Source: Chthoniobacter flavus (lineage in GTDB: Bacteria > Verrucomicrobiota > Verrucomicrobiia > Chthoniobacterales > Terrimicrobiaceae). Taken from it: a stretch of DNA of 44,995 bases. The position numbers were made by a program, and so were the translations under genes. The DNA is taken from positions 1 to 44,995 of the forward strand of contig CAMCXK010000022.1 in the NCBI GenBank assembly GCA_945883435.1, written 5' to 3'. The notes under the pieces were generated by a model that saw only the letters and a program-made list of their open reading frames with translations, had not been told where the DNA came from and did not search any database. Position 1 is the stretch's first letter. Each line of letters begins with the position of its first letter. Shown here piece after piece: positions 2,992 to 44,995 of this stretch.

Positions 2992-5316
2992 TTAGGGTTC
3001 GGGGCGAGGCGGGCTGAAGGCGAGCGCGGGGGTGGATTTCTCCGGTTGGACGAGTTCGACGCGGTGGAGTGCCAGAGCTGTTCCGCCGGGGCCGAAGGCC
3101 GGGCGCGAGCCCTTTTCAAAATAGACCGGCATGGATTCCTGCAGGGGGAGAATCTCCAAATGAAGGTCGCCGGTGAGAATGTCCGGCCCGTGCCGGCGGA
3201 GGCCGATTTCGAACACCGAGCCGTTGTGGAAATCATCGCTGAGCAGGCGGCCGCGGTGGGTGAGCCGTGCCACGTCGCCGCTGTAGTGGATGCGTAAAAT
3301 CGGGTTGGCGGCGAGGTCGAGGCCCGGCGGAAGCTGGATTTTCCAGACCGCCGCCGCTGCGAAATCGGCCGCGCCGGGGGCCACCGGCAGCGGAAACGAA
3401 GGATCGGGGGAGCTCCAGTTGCGAAGGGGGCCCGCGGGTTTCAAGGGCTCGGATTCGACAGCGAGGGTGCGGGTTTGAGCGGGGGCTTCGAGGAATGGTT
3501 GTCCGGTCGCCGGATCGCGTGCCAGTGCCAGCGAGTCGCCCTCGTTGAGAAGCACCACGCGCAACTCGCGGCCATCCCGCGAGCGAAGACGCAAGGGGGC
3601 TTGGGGATAGCAATCCGCCCGCACCACCAGCAGCGGATCGAAGCCGTGAAATCCCTCGAGCGTGGCCGTGTCGAACGCGAATTCCGCCGGAACGCCCGCT
3701 GTCTCGGCGAAAAAGACCGTCCAGCCACCATCGGGGTCGCTCCGTTTCATCAATGGTTGGGCGGTGGCATAGGCCAATGTGATGCCATTCAAGGGAAGGC
3801 GGAACGGCCAAATGAACGATGCGTCGGCGGGAATGGTGACGGGTCCCGCGGGGATCGACAGGCGGCGGTTGCCGGGCAGGTCCAGATCGAATTGCACGTG
3901 GTGGCGGGCGGGCATCGGGCGCAGGCGCTCGTAGTTGTTCACGAAGAGGAAGCCGGCTTCGCCATCCGAACGCACGCTCCAGCGCAGGGGGGCGCGTCCG
4001 GAGTCGTCGGGCCGCGGTGGCGGGAGGGTGGCCGGCATGCGGGCAAGATCCGGGCCAAAGTCCTCGAGGAACAAGTTCAGCCTGCGCAAGCCGTGGTAGT
4101 GCGGGCGGAGCTGCCCGAAGGTCCCGACGGGAGCCTGGAAATCGTAGGATTTTTCCGTGATGTCGAAGACATCGCCCAGCGTGGTGGACTTGTGAAGCGG
4201 AGCGAGGCGGCCCTCGGGGTTTTCCCCGCCGTGATACATGTAGTAGCCGATCCCCGCGCAGCCGCTCCCGATCTGGCACAGCGCGAGCGCCACGATATCC
4301 CGGGGATCCAGCCGGTTGCGGCGGTGGTAGGACACAAACATGCCGGAGCCGGTCTCGGCCGTGAGAAAGGGATAGCGCGCGCGGCTCTCGGCATCCTCGC
4401 CTCCGGCAACGGGATTCACATCGCTGGCGATCGACTCGTCGATGCGTTGAGCGCGGAATTCATAATTGTAGCCCATGGAGTCGAGGGGCGCGGTGGTTCC
4501 CTCCCAGGCGGCCTCCGCATACGCTCCGTAAAAAGGAATGATTTCCCCGGCGGGGAGGGGATCGATCATGCGGGGCCATCCGGTTTTGGTGTAAAGCGGG
4601 ACATCCATCCCGCTGCGGAGGGCGAGGCTCTTCAAGTCGAGCAGATAGCGGGAGGGGCCCGAATATTCATTGTCGAGCTGGATGCCCACGACCGGGCCCC
4701 CGTCCTTCCAGAGCAGTCCCTGCATGTGCGAACCGATTTGCGAGTAAAGGCGCTCCACCGCCTGGAAAAAACGGGGGTCGGCGGGGCGCATGCCCCACTG
4801 TGGAGGGCGCGGCCAATGGGGGCTTTTCTCGATCCAATCGGGGAATCCTCCGTAGCGGGCCTCACCGTTGCACCAGGGGCCGCAGCGCACGATGGCCAGC
4901 AGTCCCTCGTTGCGGCAGGCTTCCAGAAACGCCCTCAAGTCCCGCTGTCCGCTCCAGTCCCACTCGCCCTCCACCTCCTCATGGTGGTTCCAAAAGACAT
5001 AGGTCGAAACGATGCGGATGCCGCCCAGGCGCATTTTCCGAAGGGACTCCGCCCACTCGGCGCGGGGATGGCGTGAGAAGTGGAATTCGCCGATCACGGG
5101 AAACCAGGGCTGTCCGCCGAGAAGAAGGTGGCGGCTGTTGATGGATATTTCGACGCCTTCGGGATTCTTCGCCGCGCCGAGACGGAAATAGCCCGAGGCG
5201 GGTTCGGCGGGGCGGGCAACCGCCATGGGGTGGCGCTCGACCGCCGGCGGAGGAGGTGAGGTGAGGGTCATTCCCAAGCCCGCCACGGCAAGGGTTTTGA
5301 GCGCGCTGGTGATCAT
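2992..5316 (-). CDS. Secreted GH35 beta-galactosidase-like glycoside hydrolase
   Basis: The 774-residue product has a short hydrophobic N-terminal segment (about residues 4-20) resembling a signal peptide, then a GH35 TIM barrel from about residue 55. Typical GH35 blocks are visible: 'GEFHFSRHPRAEW', 'STYVFWNHHE', 'IVRCGPWCNGE', and 'GIQLDNEYSGP', where E217 is the expected acid/base. The nucleophile is probably E321 in 'FLTAETGSGM'. The C-terminal 300 residues are beta-rich, as in multi-domain GH35 enzymes. The family releases terminal beta-galactose from polysaccharides or glycans by a retaining mechanism. It is transcribed alone, between msrA and the cmr operon. The exact substrate cannot be read from the sequence, and the signal peptide has a weak cleavage site. 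Confidence 0.85.
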   Translation of the reverse strand: MITSALKTLAVAGLGMTLTSPPPPAVERHPMAVARPAEPASGYFRLGAAKNPEGVEISINSRHLLLGGQPWFPVIGEFHFSRHPRAEWAESLRKMRLGGIRIVSTYVFWNHHEEVEGEWDWSGQRDLRAFLEACRNEGLLAIVRCGPWCNGEARYGGFPDWIEKSPHWPRPPQWGMRPADPRFFQAVERLYSQIGSHMQGLLWKDGGPVVGIQLDNEYSGPSRYLLDLKSLALRSGMDVPLYTKTGWPRMIDPLPAGEIIPFYGAYAEAAWEGTTAPLDSMGYNYEFRAQRIDESIASDVNPVAGGEDAESRARYPFLTAETGSGMFVSYHRRNRLDPRDIVALALCQIGSGCAGIGYYMYHGGENPEGRLAPLHKSTTLGDVFDITEKSYDFQAPVGTFGQLRPHYHGLRRLNLFLEDFGPDLARMPATLPPPRPDDSGRAPLRWSVRSDGEAGFLFVNNYERLRPMPARHHVQFDLDLPGNRRLSIPAGPVTIPADASFIWPFRLPLNGITLAYATAQPLMKRSDPDGGWTVFFAETAGVPAEFAFDTATLEGFHGFDPLLVVRADCYPQAPLRLRSRDGRELRVVLLNEGDSLALARDPATGQPFLEAPAQTRTLAVESEPLKPAGPLRNWSSPDPSFPLPVAPGAADFAAAAVWKIQLPPGLDLAANPILRIHYSGDVARLTHRGRLLSDDFHNGSVFEIGLRRHGPDILTGDLHLEILPLQESMPVYFEKGSRPAFGPGGTALALHRVELVQPEKSTPALAFSPPRPEP

Positions 5317-5436
5317 GGGGGAAATCTCCTGGTTGAAAGCGGGGTTGATCTAAGGGGTCATATCGGGAAACGGCCGGGAGGGTCTCCCGAGGCTGTTCTG
5401 AAAGGTGAGACACCCGGCACGGCCATTGTGTTCAAG

Positions 5437-5452
5437 CCTTCCCGCGGGAAGG
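5437..5452. other. Perfect 16-bp palindrome downstream of msrA
   Basis: CCTTCCCG followed by CGGGAAGG forms an uninterrupted 8-bp inverted repeat nine bases past the msrA stop codon. Read on the plus strand it is followed by GGATTTTTT, a terminator-like arrangement, but no plus-strand gene precedes it. Read in the msrA direction there is no T-tract after the stem. It may stabilise the msrA 3' end or be a protein-binding site in front of the GH35 gene. Confidence 0.35.
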
Positions 5453-5460
5453 GGATTTTT

Positions 5461-6027
5461 TCAGGGCGATTGGAGCTTTTTGAGCTTCGGAGCGATCACC
5501 GCCCGCACATAGGGATGGTCTGGATTCCGTGCGGCGAATTCCTGATGGTAGTTTTCCGCAGGGTAGAACGGCACCGGGTCGATGATCTCGGTGACGATCG
5601 GGTTGCGGAAGCGGGGTTGGGCCGCGGCTTTGGATTGTTCGGCGGCGGCTTTCTGGCCGGGATTCCGGGCCACGATGATCGAGCGGTATTGGGTGCCGCG
5701 ATCGGCCCCTTGACGATTCAGCGTGGTGGGGTCGTGTGCGCTCCAGAACACCTCGAGAATTTTTTCATAGGAGAGGATGGACGGATCGAAGGTGATTTCG
5801 ACGACTTCCGCATGGCCGCTGTTTCCGGAGCAGACCTCGTCGTAGGTCGGGTAGGGCTTGGCGCCGGCCGCGTAGCCGCTGGAGACCGAGACGACGCCCG
5901 GCAGGTTTTCATAGACCGCTTCGACGCACCAGAAGCACCCGCCGCCAAGAACCGCTTTTTCCGTGGGATTTTCCATACCCATCGCTACGAGCGCCGGGAG
6001 TAAAAAGACAATCGCAATTGCTCTCAT
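5461..6027 (-). CDS. msrA: Peptide methionine-(S)-sulfoxide reductase MsrA, exported
   Basis: MsrA reduces methionine-S-sulfoxide in oxidised proteins. The catalytic motif GCFWC is present, with C31 as nucleophile and C34 nearby, followed by the family block 'VSVSSGYAAG'. The first 17 or so residues (RAIAIVFLLPALVA) form a signal-peptide-like helix, so the enzyme probably acts in the periplasm or as an anchored protein. I chose the ATG at 6027 because it overlaps the upstream stop as ATGA, the coupling used widely here; an ATG two codons earlier (6033) is possible. The protein has 188 residues, normal for MsrA with a leader. A separate msrB lies about 8.5 kb away at 14481. Confidence 0.93.
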   Translation of the reverse strand: MRAIAIVFLLPALVAMGMENPTEKAVLGGGCFWCVEAVYENLPGVVSVSSGYAAGAKPYPTYDEVCSGNSGHAEVVEITFDPSILSYEKILEVFWSAHDPTTLNRQGADRGTQYRSIIVARNPGQKAAAEQSKAAAQPRFRNPIVTEIIDPVPFYPAENYHQEFAARNPDHPYVRAVIAPKLKKLQSP

Positions 6028-38373: not shown

Positions 38374-39489
38374 TCAAGGCGCGGCGGCGGCTCCGAGCCA
38401 GCGCCTTTGCGTATCGGCCCACATGGTGGATTGGGTGAATTCCAACACGGCATCGTTGAAACGCCGGTAGTCGGGATGGTCGTTCCGGAAAGGCACCGCT
38501 ATAAACGACTCCCGGAAGTTGAACCGGGCCAGTTCGAAATGTTTGGGTGGCCGCAGCTGGGAGAAGCTCCGCAGAGCATAGGCGAGCGCGTAGCGGTCCT
38601 CGATCACCGCCTCGATCCGCCGGGCGTGCAAATCCTCAAGCGCCGCGTCGATCGACTCGTATTCGTGCGTTGCAACGCCAAGCGTCTTCAAAACCCCGGC
38701 GGCCTCGGAATCCTTGAGAACACCGCAGGAGATTTCCTGAAAGTCGGCGATGTTCTGAAGCGAGTTGGAAAGTCGGGCCGCGGAAAGCGAGGACGTCACG
38801 CTGGCCGTGAAGCCCGAGACCAAAACCACTCCTCCCAGCATCCAGAGAAACGCGATGAAGCGGCCCGCAAATGTCGCCGGCGTTTTGTCCCCGTAGCCAA
38901 CCGTTGTCATGGTGACTGCGGAAAACCAAAGCGCGGATCCGATACCACGAAGGCCACCGGCAAAATGCCGCGCATCGTGCTGCCGTTCCACAGCCCAAAT
39001 AAGAACACTGACGAGAAGCATGGTGGCGACAATCCCCGCCACAAGCTTGGCAATCGTGGGATTTAAAAGGTCGCTTCGCACGGCCAGCCAGGCGGATTTC
39101 CAGTCCTGCCGGTTGAAGGCCGCCGTGATGCTGGAGTTCAGATAAGGGAGGGCAAAATCAATCATCCGCTCCGCCGCGGGTGTGACCTCGCTTTCCCCGG
39201 CCCCTGCATCAAAATCCCCAGCGGCCACGCCTTGGATCACATCCTCGTAGGGCACCTCGACGAATTCGTAGTCGATCCCGGCGATCTTCGACACCCCCAT
39301 CCAAAGCGAGGGAGCCAGTCCCGCCCAGGAGCCATCCTGGTTCTTGATCGCATAGGGCGGTTTCTCATGAATGGCCACCCGCAGCCGGTTTGATGCCGTC
39401 GAGGGGGACTCGCCCCAGGCAAACACCGCGGACAGCAGAACCCCGGACAGCACCATGAAAACCCGCAACAAAGATTGTGGTCCGCTCAT
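38374..39489 (-). CDS. GluR0-type ligand-gated ion channel (prokaryotic glutamate receptor)
   Basis: The 371-residue protein has a signal peptide (about 1-26), a split periplasmic-binding domain (S1 about 35-130, '[20 protein letters not shown]'; S2 about 240-365), and between them a membrane core: helix about 147-167, pore loop with selectivity filter TVGYGD (196-201) in '[20 protein letters not shown]', and helix about 209-229 ending '[11 protein letters not shown]'. This is the architecture of bacterial GluR0, where amino-acid binding outside opens a potassium-type pore. Unlike animal receptors it lacks a third helix. It starts inside the ruvB stop as ATGA. Ligand is unknown; potassium selectivity is inferred from the filter. 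Confidence 0.9.
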
Positions 39490-42733: not shown

Positions 42734-42752
42734 AATAAAAAAATTGGGCTTG

Positions 42753-42825
42753 TGTCCCCAGGCAGAGTCGAACTGCCATCTGAGCTTTAGGAGAGCCCCG
42801 CTCTATCCACTTGAGCTATGAGGAC
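42753..42825 (-). tRNA. tRNA-Arg (anticodon CCT)
   Basis: The minus strand folds as a cloverleaf: acceptor GTCCTCA with TGGGGAC, D-arm GCTC/GAGC, anticodon stem GGGCT/AGCTC with loop CTCCTAA, T-arm GGCAG-TTCGACT-CTGCC and discriminator A. CCA is not encoded (CAA follows). It reads AGG codons. A T-rich stretch follows at 42734-42746, just before the HAD gene start. Confidence 0.93.
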
Positions 42826-43094
42826 TTTGAATCTTGATAATTTTCAGGAAAACTACCATGCTCTCCGCACGAGGGCAGACTGCAAGGTTGTCCGGGTCCA
42901 GTCAATGCTGATGTCTCTAATACGTCCAACCAAAATATTGATGTGGAGCCAATGATCAAATCGGAGAATGAGATTCTGAGACTCTATGTTCGATGAACTT
43001 GCCCACCCGGTTCGTTACAAAAAGTCTGGAGTTTTTGGGTTGAAGAGGTAAGGTGTAGACATCATCTGCGCGTTCGATAAAGACAGGACTCTGA
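42826..43094. other. A/T-richer gap between tRNA-Arg and the SAM-SUMF1 gene
   Basis: This 269-bp gap is visibly richer in A and T than the rest of the window and holds no ORF I can support. It must contain the divergent promoters of tRNA-Arg (minus) and the SAM-SUMF1 gene (plus). The last bases give the AGGA ribosome-binding site at 43085-43088. I see no long direct repeats or integrase remnants in it. Confidence 0.5.
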
Positions 43095-44021
43095 TTGATC
43101 GACATCACTCTACAACTTGAGGCGATTCTCAAAGCTGAGAACCGCGAACACCTTCTCAAAAATTTTATTGACGAGGGTGTGGACGACGCCGTGCTCGGAT
43201 ATCTCACCGATGACGATCTGGTCAACCTGGGCGTCAAGCGGATCGGGGACAGGCGGCGGTTGCTGGCGGCCTTTGCCAAGGTAGGTGCGGAGCAGGGTCT
43301 GGTGCTGGCTTCACCGATGCCGAAGGCTTCAAAGGAAAAACCGCATGTGAACAGCGTGGGTCTATCGTTTGTTCCGGTGCCACGCTTCAAGACCCTGGTG
43401 TGCACAATTCCGCTCCGGGTGCAGGACTACAGGCTTTACTGCGTCGAAAAGGGCATTGATTTTCCCGATCAGAAAAATCCGACCGACTCGACACATCCGG
43501 TGGTGAATGTTTCCTGGCACGAAGCCATCGAATATTGCCTGTGGCTCACTGCCAAGGAACGGGAAGCGGGACTCATGGGGAACGACCAGTTTTACCGGCT
43601 ACTGACCGACCTGGAATGGAGCGCCGCCATCGGGCTGCCCATGGAGGCGGAGGAAACTCCAGCCGAGCGGAGCAAGCAGAAACCGGGCTACCCCTGGGGA
43701 CCGGGCTATCCGCCACGCAAAGGCGTTGGCAACTACCATCCTTCGCTCAAGGTCGACGAGTGGGAGTTCACCTCGCCGGTGGATGCCTTTCCCGCAAACG
43801 AACTGGGCCTTTACGACCTGAGCGGCAATGTGTGGGAGTGGTGCATGGACAACTACAACACTTCGCGCACCTACCACACCTTGCGTGGAGGGGCGTGGGA
43901 CTTTTACGGAAGCGGGCTCATGTCGTCGGCCCGGAACGCCAACGATCCCAACGGCCGGGGCACAAGCATCGGATTCCGCATTGCGTTCGCAATCCAGGAT
44001 CCCCACCACCACTCGAAGTAG
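43095..44021 (+). CDS. SAM-domain/SUMF1 (formylglycine-generating-like) fusion protein
   Basis: The 308-residue protein joins an N-terminal sterile-alpha-motif-like domain (about 6-65; 'LLKNFIDEGVDDAVLGYLTD' and 'NLGVKRIGDRRRLLAAF') to a SUMF1/FGE-fold domain (about 85-300; 'VVNVSWHEAIEYCLWLT', 'GLYDLSGNVWEWCMDNY', 'HTLRGGAWDFYGSG', 'SIGFRIAFA'). SAM domains usually mediate oligomerisation; SUMF1 folds include copper oxidases, EgtB/PvdO-type iron enzymes and ligand-binding lectin-like forms. The two C-terminal active-site cysteines of true FGE are absent (no Cys after C250), so it is not a classical sulfatase activator. The start is TTG 43095 with AGGA six bases upstream. There is no signal peptide. 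Function unknown. Confidence 0.85.
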   Translation: MIDITLQLEAILKAENREHLLKNFIDEGVDDAVLGYLTDDDLVNLGVKRIGDRRRLLAAFAKVGAEQGLVLASPMPKASKEKPHVNSVGLSFVPVPRFKTLVCTIPLRVQDYRLYCVEKGIDFPDQKNPTDSTHPVVNVSWHEAIEYCLWLTAKEREAGLMGNDQFYRLLTDLEWSAAIGLPMEAEETPAERSKQKPGYPWGPGYPPRKGVGNYHPSLKVDEWEFTSPVDAFPANELGLYDLSGNVWEWCMDNYNTSRTYHTLRGGAWDFYGSGLMSSARNANDPNGRGTSIGFRIAFAIQDPHHHSK

Positions 44022-44031
44022 CCACGGCGAA

Positions 44032-44995
44032 TCAACGCGCTGCGGGGCGTCCGCCGCCCAGGCTGGCGCAAAGAAAAATCGTCAAAGCCATCAGGCCCGC
44101 CGCTGCCAGAAAAGGTGTTTGGCCATAAAGGCCGCTGAATCCGGCGGCGTCGAGTTGCAGAAGATATCCCCCGGTGACCGGACCGAGCCAGCGGCCGAGA
44201 CTACCGGCGGATTGCAGAAATCCCAGAGCGCGGCCTTGCCAGTCGGCGTCCACATTTCGCGAGGCCAGGCCGGTCAGGGTGGGGGAGAGCAGGCTGTTGC
44301 CAAGCGCGATCCCCGCGCAGGCGGCGAGCAGGCCCGGCAAGCCGCTGGCAAACGGCGTGGCGGCGAGGCTTGCTGTGAGAATGACCGATCCCGCCAATGC
44401 AAGACGGGCTTCGCCGATTGTCTTGACCAACCGCCCGATCAGGCCGCCTTGCACCACCGCGCCGATGACGCCCAGCATCGCGAAAAGATAGGCGGTCCGC
44501 GTGGCGTCGAAATCGTGTCTCCGGGCCAGAAAGAGCGCAAACACACCGGTCATGATCGAGAATCCCGCGATCAAAATGAAATAGGTCGCCAAAATGGTGA
44601 AATACGCTCGGGGTCGCACATGCCGCGCCAAGCCTTGAAAAAACGACTCCTCGTTTGCCGCAGGCGCGGCCTTTGATTTGGATTCGGGCAAAAAAACCGC
44701 AATCAGAATGGCATTGGCCAGTGCCAGTGCCCCGGCAACGAACAGAGGCGCGGATTCCCCGAAATAAGCGGCCAGAAGGCCTCCCAGAGCGGGACCGAAG
44801 ACAAATCCCATTCCGAACGCCGCTCCGAGGATTCCCATCGCGCGGGAGCGGTTCTCGGGAGAGGTGATATCCGCCACGTAAGCCTGGGCGGTGCCGACAA
44901 CCCCGCCGGAAAGTCCGTCGATGATCCGTCCTGCAAAGAGCATGGCCAGCGAGCCTGCGGCTCCCATGATCACAAATCCCGCAGCGGTTCCCAGC
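44032..44995 (-). CDS. Major facilitator superfamily transporter (N-terminus beyond window)
   Basis: About 320 residues of an MFS permease are visible; the frame stays open to the right edge, so the first helices are missing. The visible part starts 'LGTAAGFVIMGAAGSLAMLF' and has the TetA-like blocks 'GRIIDGLSGGVVGTAQAYVA', 'GFVFGPALGGLLAAYFG' and a central loop ('FLPESKSKAAPAANEE'), then the second six-helix bundle. It resembles the DHA1 drug-proton antiporter group, but the substrate cannot be read. It is convergent with the SAM-SUMF1 gene 10 bases away. Confidence 0.85.
   Translation of the reverse strand, partial: LGTAAGFVIMGAAGSLAMLFAGRIIDGLSGGVVGTAQAYVADITSPENRSRAMGILGAAFGMGFVFGPALGGLLAAYFGESAPLFVAGALALANAILIAVFLPESKSKAAPAANEESFFQGLARHVRPRAYFTILATYFILIAGFSIMTGVFALFLARRHDFDATRTAYLFAMLGVIGAVVQGGLIGRLVKTIGEARLALAGSVILTASLAATPFASGLPGLLAACAGIALGNSLLSPTLTGLASRNVDADWQGRALGFLQSAGSLGRWLGPVTGGYLLQLDAAGFSGLYGQTPFLAAAGLMALTIFLCASLGGGRPAAR

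Follow-up and report, generated by a model that had tools for sequence, protein, structure and literature searches.

A SAM–SUMF1 fusion gene of a Verrucomicrobiota genus and the near-cognate start codon of its orthologues

The gene, its surroundings and its relatives

The window (the whole stretch of DNA analysed here, 44,995 nt) belongs to a genome of 2.84 Mb that is 97.6% complete. Close to the end of the window lies a gene (43095..44021, + strand) that encodes 308 amino acids when called from a TTG codon, with TAG as its stop. This TTG is immediately followed by an alternative start, ATC (43098..43100, +), whose homologous codon is an ATH start in the orthologues and an ATG start in paralogues with 62–66% identity; a Shine-Dalgarno (SD)-like AGGA (43085..43088, +) is located 6 nt upstream of the TTG and 9 nt upstream of the ATC. 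The product is a small cytosolic protein, consisting of a SAM domain of putative polymer type (residues 6–66; 43110..43292, +), recognised by profile match and AlphaFold2, and a non-catalytic SUMF1/FGE-sulfatase (C-type-lectin-like) domain (residues 82–300; 43338..43994, +) from which the Cys pair of formylglycine-generating enzymes (FGE) is absent. These component domains are of known kinds. In the literature searched, which comprises open-licence papers only, we found no report of SAM paired with SUMF1/FGE, nor of the conserved ATH start of this family.

The gene is flanked by a tRNA-Arg(CCT) gene (42752..42825, −) and a convergent gene for an MFS transporter (44032..44994, −). Neighbouring genes differ among most orthologues, and this tRNA-Arg and MFS pair is peculiar to the window; a tRNA-linked island was rejected because these neighbours are not common to the orthologues. 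An earlier note, made from the sequence alone, had pointed to the tRNA gene and to a locally A/T-richer stretch. The tRNA-Arg gene is genuine, yet none of the orthologues and close paralogues examined has it as a neighbour, and the GC content at 43–44 kb is indeed 57.3% but lower still at 24–25 kb and 2–3 kb of the window, so that neither feature carries significance. A promoter scan around the gene returned nothing exceeding chance. The gene is under strong purifying selection, and this coding constraint rules out a pseudogene with a lost start; within its genus of Verrucomicrobiota, SAM–SUMF1 is an ordinary gene of the chromosome. Elsewhere in the window, positions 38374–39489 encode a glutamate-receptor-like ion channel (SBP_bac_3 + Ion_trans_2 + Lig_chan).

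The survey of neighbourhoods proposed in the earlier note brought little shared context to light. The recurrent companion is a gene for a CobW-type (G3E) GTPase (PF02492 + PF07683), found beside SAM–SUMF1 in 6 of 15 related loci. On the same strand, it follows SAM–SUMF1 after ~33–48 bp in the orthologous loci L082 (1200–2159) and L067 (7365–8324) and in three of the four loci of the 62–66% paralogue (among the CobW genes located are those of L089, 4151–5098, and L092, 1470–2417), and is also directly downstream in the fourth, L090. It is absent beside the remaining orthologues, the window included, and the orthologue neighbourhoods compared hold no other conserved effector or NTPase partner.

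Of the 16 genomes of the genus, 11 carry an orthologue, that of the window included. Ten orthologues are 75–84% identical to the window protein, apart from 71% for that of G005, which has lost its 3′ end at a contig edge. Named relatives come from MAGs labelled Terrimicrobiaceae, Spartobacteria or Chthoniobacter. The same genus also holds the 62–66% paralogue, a SAM-less paralogue (45–55%) and more distant SAM–SUMF1 genes (25–35%), which often form tandem pairs (L052, L053, L054, L055 and L059), one copy often being weaker in SUMF1. Strong SAM matches in the family are all fused to SUMF1, with the sole exception of a fragment in the window's own genome (L132 4827–5003, G000:C112), broken by a contig end. 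In an even draw across the phylum, this type of SAM domain was found in 3 of 288 genomes. The nearest SUMF1 domains of the same order, 37–45% identical to that of the window, stand behind Ser/Thr kinase domains; in these fusions, kinase (and PEGA) domains replace SAM. A second, different bacterial SAM cluster is present at L131 3229–7323 (G069:C33), where three successive genes carry an N-terminal SAM domain followed by VWA, PA14-like and DUF5077-like regions, and are preceded by ExbB/ExbD-like genes. A phage origin was also considered and rejected: matches to the best viral contigs lie in SUMF1, at 26–38% identity, and none of the viral contigs fetched has a SAM domain by the SAM profile. One viral contig, L133, has a SUMF1 gene (5001–5732) that is 36% identical to residues 83–303.

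The SAM and SUMF1 domains

The earlier note had proposed a SAM domain in front of a SUMF1 domain without FGE cysteines, and profile searches, structure prediction and structural comparison agree with it. Neither of the two outcomes that the note had named as refuting, a missing SAM match and homologues with the FGE cysteines retained, was observed. Pfam SAM_2 matches residues 14–61 (E 8.9e-6, 26.2 bits, cut-off 20.5) and SAM_1 residues 18–59 (25.0 bits, cut-off 23); a SAM profile built from the gene and its relatives, and including the window gene itself, gives E 8e-31 on the window protein. In the AlphaFold2 model (mean pLDDT 80.7), residues 6–66 are predicted to form five helices (6–14, 18–26, 31–36, 39–44 and 50–66), as expected for a SAM domain, and Foldseek matches the N-terminus to the SAM domains of ANKS3/ANKS6, tankyrase and Shank. 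By profile and fold, the region belongs to the SAM family (PF07647/PF00536). It combines an acidic patch (residues 26–41, net −7) with a basic helix (residues 48–62, net +5), and G51, R53 and R55 are invariant. This charge split and these invariant residues suggest that the SAM domain may self-associate through its mid-loop and end helix, and the earlier note's cytosolic module, one of whose domains probably oligomerises, stands. The polymeric SAM domains of ANKS3/ANKS6, tankyrase and Shank have the same fold and the same two-faced acidic/basic charge pattern, but are eukaryotic, whereas the window SAM is bacterial, fused to SUMF1 and only predicted to polymerise.

The C-terminal body adopts a SUMF1/C-type-lectin-like fold in the AlphaFold2 model. 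The Pfam FGE-sulfatase profile matches residues 128–297 (E 3.9e-29, 102.5 bits, cut-off 23.3) and the core motifs GNVWEW, RGG and GFR are present, placing the domain in the SUMF1/FGE-sulfatase superfamily (PF03781). This fold and these motifs are common to FGE (SUMF1) and its non-catalytic paralogue SUMF2/pFGE; the best phmmer match is pFGE (1y4j), which likewise lacks the catalytic Cys pair. No Cys of the SAM–SUMF1 protein lies beyond C250, and none occurs in LRGGAWDFYGSGLMSSARNANDPNGRGTSIGFRIA, the C-terminal segment where the FGE pair would sit. The same stretch has at most one Cys in each of 26 aligned relatives, and the pair in none. With no Cys beyond residue 250, the protein is therefore not a formylglycine-generating enzyme, and it further differs from FGE and pFGE in being cytosolic and bearing a SAM domain.

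Among solved structures, the SUMF1 domain is closest to SUMF1 folds other than FGE, namely TvpA and related variable proteins of diversity-generating retroelements (DGRs), PorK/GldK and CarF; Foldseek matched the SUMF1 body to Treponema TvpA (E 3e-8), PorK and CarF. Despite the likeness to TvpA, the protein was rejected as a DGR target. The C-terminal segment is almost invariant among orthologues, no reverse transcriptase was found in the 97.6% complete genome of the window, and a search for a template repeat or second copy of the segment found neither. SAM–SUMF1 differs from these relatives in having no DGR, no lipoprotein-type N-terminus and a conserved C-terminus.

Start codons of the orthologues and of infC

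When open reading frames are called from ATG, GTG or TTG only, many orthologues are shortened to near residue 30, because their 5′ ends contain none of these codons. In a DNA alignment of the ten orthologues with complete 5′ ends, the window among them, an ATH codon occupies the same place in all ten (5 ATC, 3 ATA, 2 ATT), as in loci L021, L023–L028 and L031. Upstream of this codon, the first, second and third codon positions diverge to the same extent between pairs (.72/.71/.73), so that coding constraint is absent there; at the codon itself the divergence is 0/0/.69, and over codons 1–28 it is.23/.10/.60, resembling the remainder of the SAM domain. From this profile, the reading frame starts at the ATH codon, which is shown as far as sequence comparison allows. 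Eight of the ten have no canonical codon where coding constraint sets in. A canonical codon stands immediately before ATH only in the window (TTG) and in G013 (ATG); the rule therefore holds for 8/10 rather than 10/10, and the window's own start is ambiguous between TTG (43095) and ATC (43098). In G015 and G003, an in-frame TTG occurs farther upstream.

Nine of the ten orthologues have an SD site before ATH, G006 being without a clear one. At the correct distance, anti-SD pairing averages −6.1 kcal/mol across the ten, versus a background of −1.4 (sd 0.8) from pairing elsewhere upstream; in the window it is −4.0 kcal/mol. At the homologous position, the 62–66% paralogues carry ATG. The orthologue tree requires only about four third-base changes at the ATH codon, not enough to prove that ATG is avoided.

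We asked of 137 coding ORFs with homologues in the fetched loci, mostly from genomes of the genus, whether a canonical start is present where conservation begins. Eleven were flagged, five of which are SAM–SUMF1 orthologues with an ATH start. In the six others (L051, L053, L054, L055, L099 and L113:1378), the aligned region contains an in-frame Met close to its start, so that these flags represent alignment spill-over, leaving no other gene family truly without a canonical start among the 137. The classic AUU-start gene is infC, which encodes translation factor IF3. Its start is ATT in 16/16 genomes of the genus (loci L239–L254), and the stretch from the in-frame stop to the conserved RINE motif contains no ATG, GTG or TTG near the ATT in these 16 genomes; the infC of the window's genome alone has two GTG codons, far upstream.

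A candidate scaffold and its alternatives

From these sequence features, we infer oligomerisation, ligand binding, low abundance and control by IF3. The explanation that we favour, at about an even chance, is that SAM–SUMF1 acts in the cytosol, without enzymatic activity, as a scaffold or sensor, oligomerised by SAM and displaying a ligand-binding SUMF1 domain, with low output set by a near-cognate start that IF3 discriminates against. SAM domains would assemble head-to-tail, the acidic mid-loop face against the basic end-helix face, so that the SUMF1/C-type-lectin-like domain would be displayed many times over and could bind a ligand or partner; such a ligand-binding, oligomerising role is plausible. 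The near-cognate start (AUA/AUC/AUU), together with a good SD site, would hold the gene at low output throughout the genus. IF3 rejects near-cognate starts, and synthesis should therefore increase whenever active IF3 is scarce in relation to 30S subunits, as for infC.

The same protein could instead have an ATH start that merely fixes a low expression level, with IF3 as no physiological regulator, which we judge possible though somewhat doubtful. Near-cognate starts are weak by nature, we found no link of the protein to translation, and two orthologues carry a canonical codon immediately before ATH; the genus-wide retention of the codon with a good SD site, and an infC of the same start class, however, fit regulation. 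There is very little room for the start being illusory, through either an upstream start with frameshifting or an internal GTG near codon 28. Such an in-frame GTG does occur in some orthologues but is not conserved, codons 1–28 are constrained like codons 28–60, and the upstream sequence is unconstrained, with stop codons just upstream of ATH in several orthologues.

Other alternatives concern the function of the protein. A partnership in metal handling with the downstream CobW-type GTPase, for which the lectin-like domain would be a metal-dependent client or partner, is suggested by the position of cobW directly downstream in L082, L067 and all four loci of the 62–66% paralogue; this argument comes from gene order alone and the GTPase gene is missing beside the other orthologues, including that of the window, which makes the partnership unlikely. 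The earlier note had suggested a sensor or effector of a conflict system, a role that we now consider quite improbable. FGS domains do occur in conflict systems, where they function as effectors or bind ligands (PMC7159879), and the best solved relative of the SUMF1 domain is the DGR variable protein TvpA. However, PADLOC matched no defence model, there is no reverse transcriptase, template repeat or conserved effector or NTPase partner, and the gene is widespread and strongly conserved in the genus rather than a patchy island, with a nearly invariant C-terminus.

Returning to the scaffold with a discriminated start, we put forward, tentatively, that SAM–SUMF1 joins infC as the second conserved AUH-start gene of these bacteria, and that synthesis of the SAM–SUMF1 protein depends on the free IF3/30S state. 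Only under relaxed initiation fidelity would the polymerising scaffold then exceed its threshold for assembly. IF3 represses non-canonical starts, with infC and Streptomyces sigR (GTC) as conserved cases (PMC5472188). Like infC (AUU/AUC) and sigR, SAM–SUMF1 combines a lineage-conserved non-canonical start with an SD site; IF3 repression was shown for those two genes (PMC5472188) and would extend to SAM–SUMF1 by analogy. The latter encodes neither a translation factor nor a sigma factor, and its host belongs to the Verrucomicrobiota. Very few bacterial starts other than AUG, GUG and UUG are kept across a lineage, infC and sigR being the documented ones that we found, and gene finders miss or misplace such starts. 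In some of the genomes an ATG paralogue accompanies the ATH gene and offers a natural control, which makes IF3 control beyond infC directly testable; G001 and G014 each hold an ATT copy and an ATG copy.
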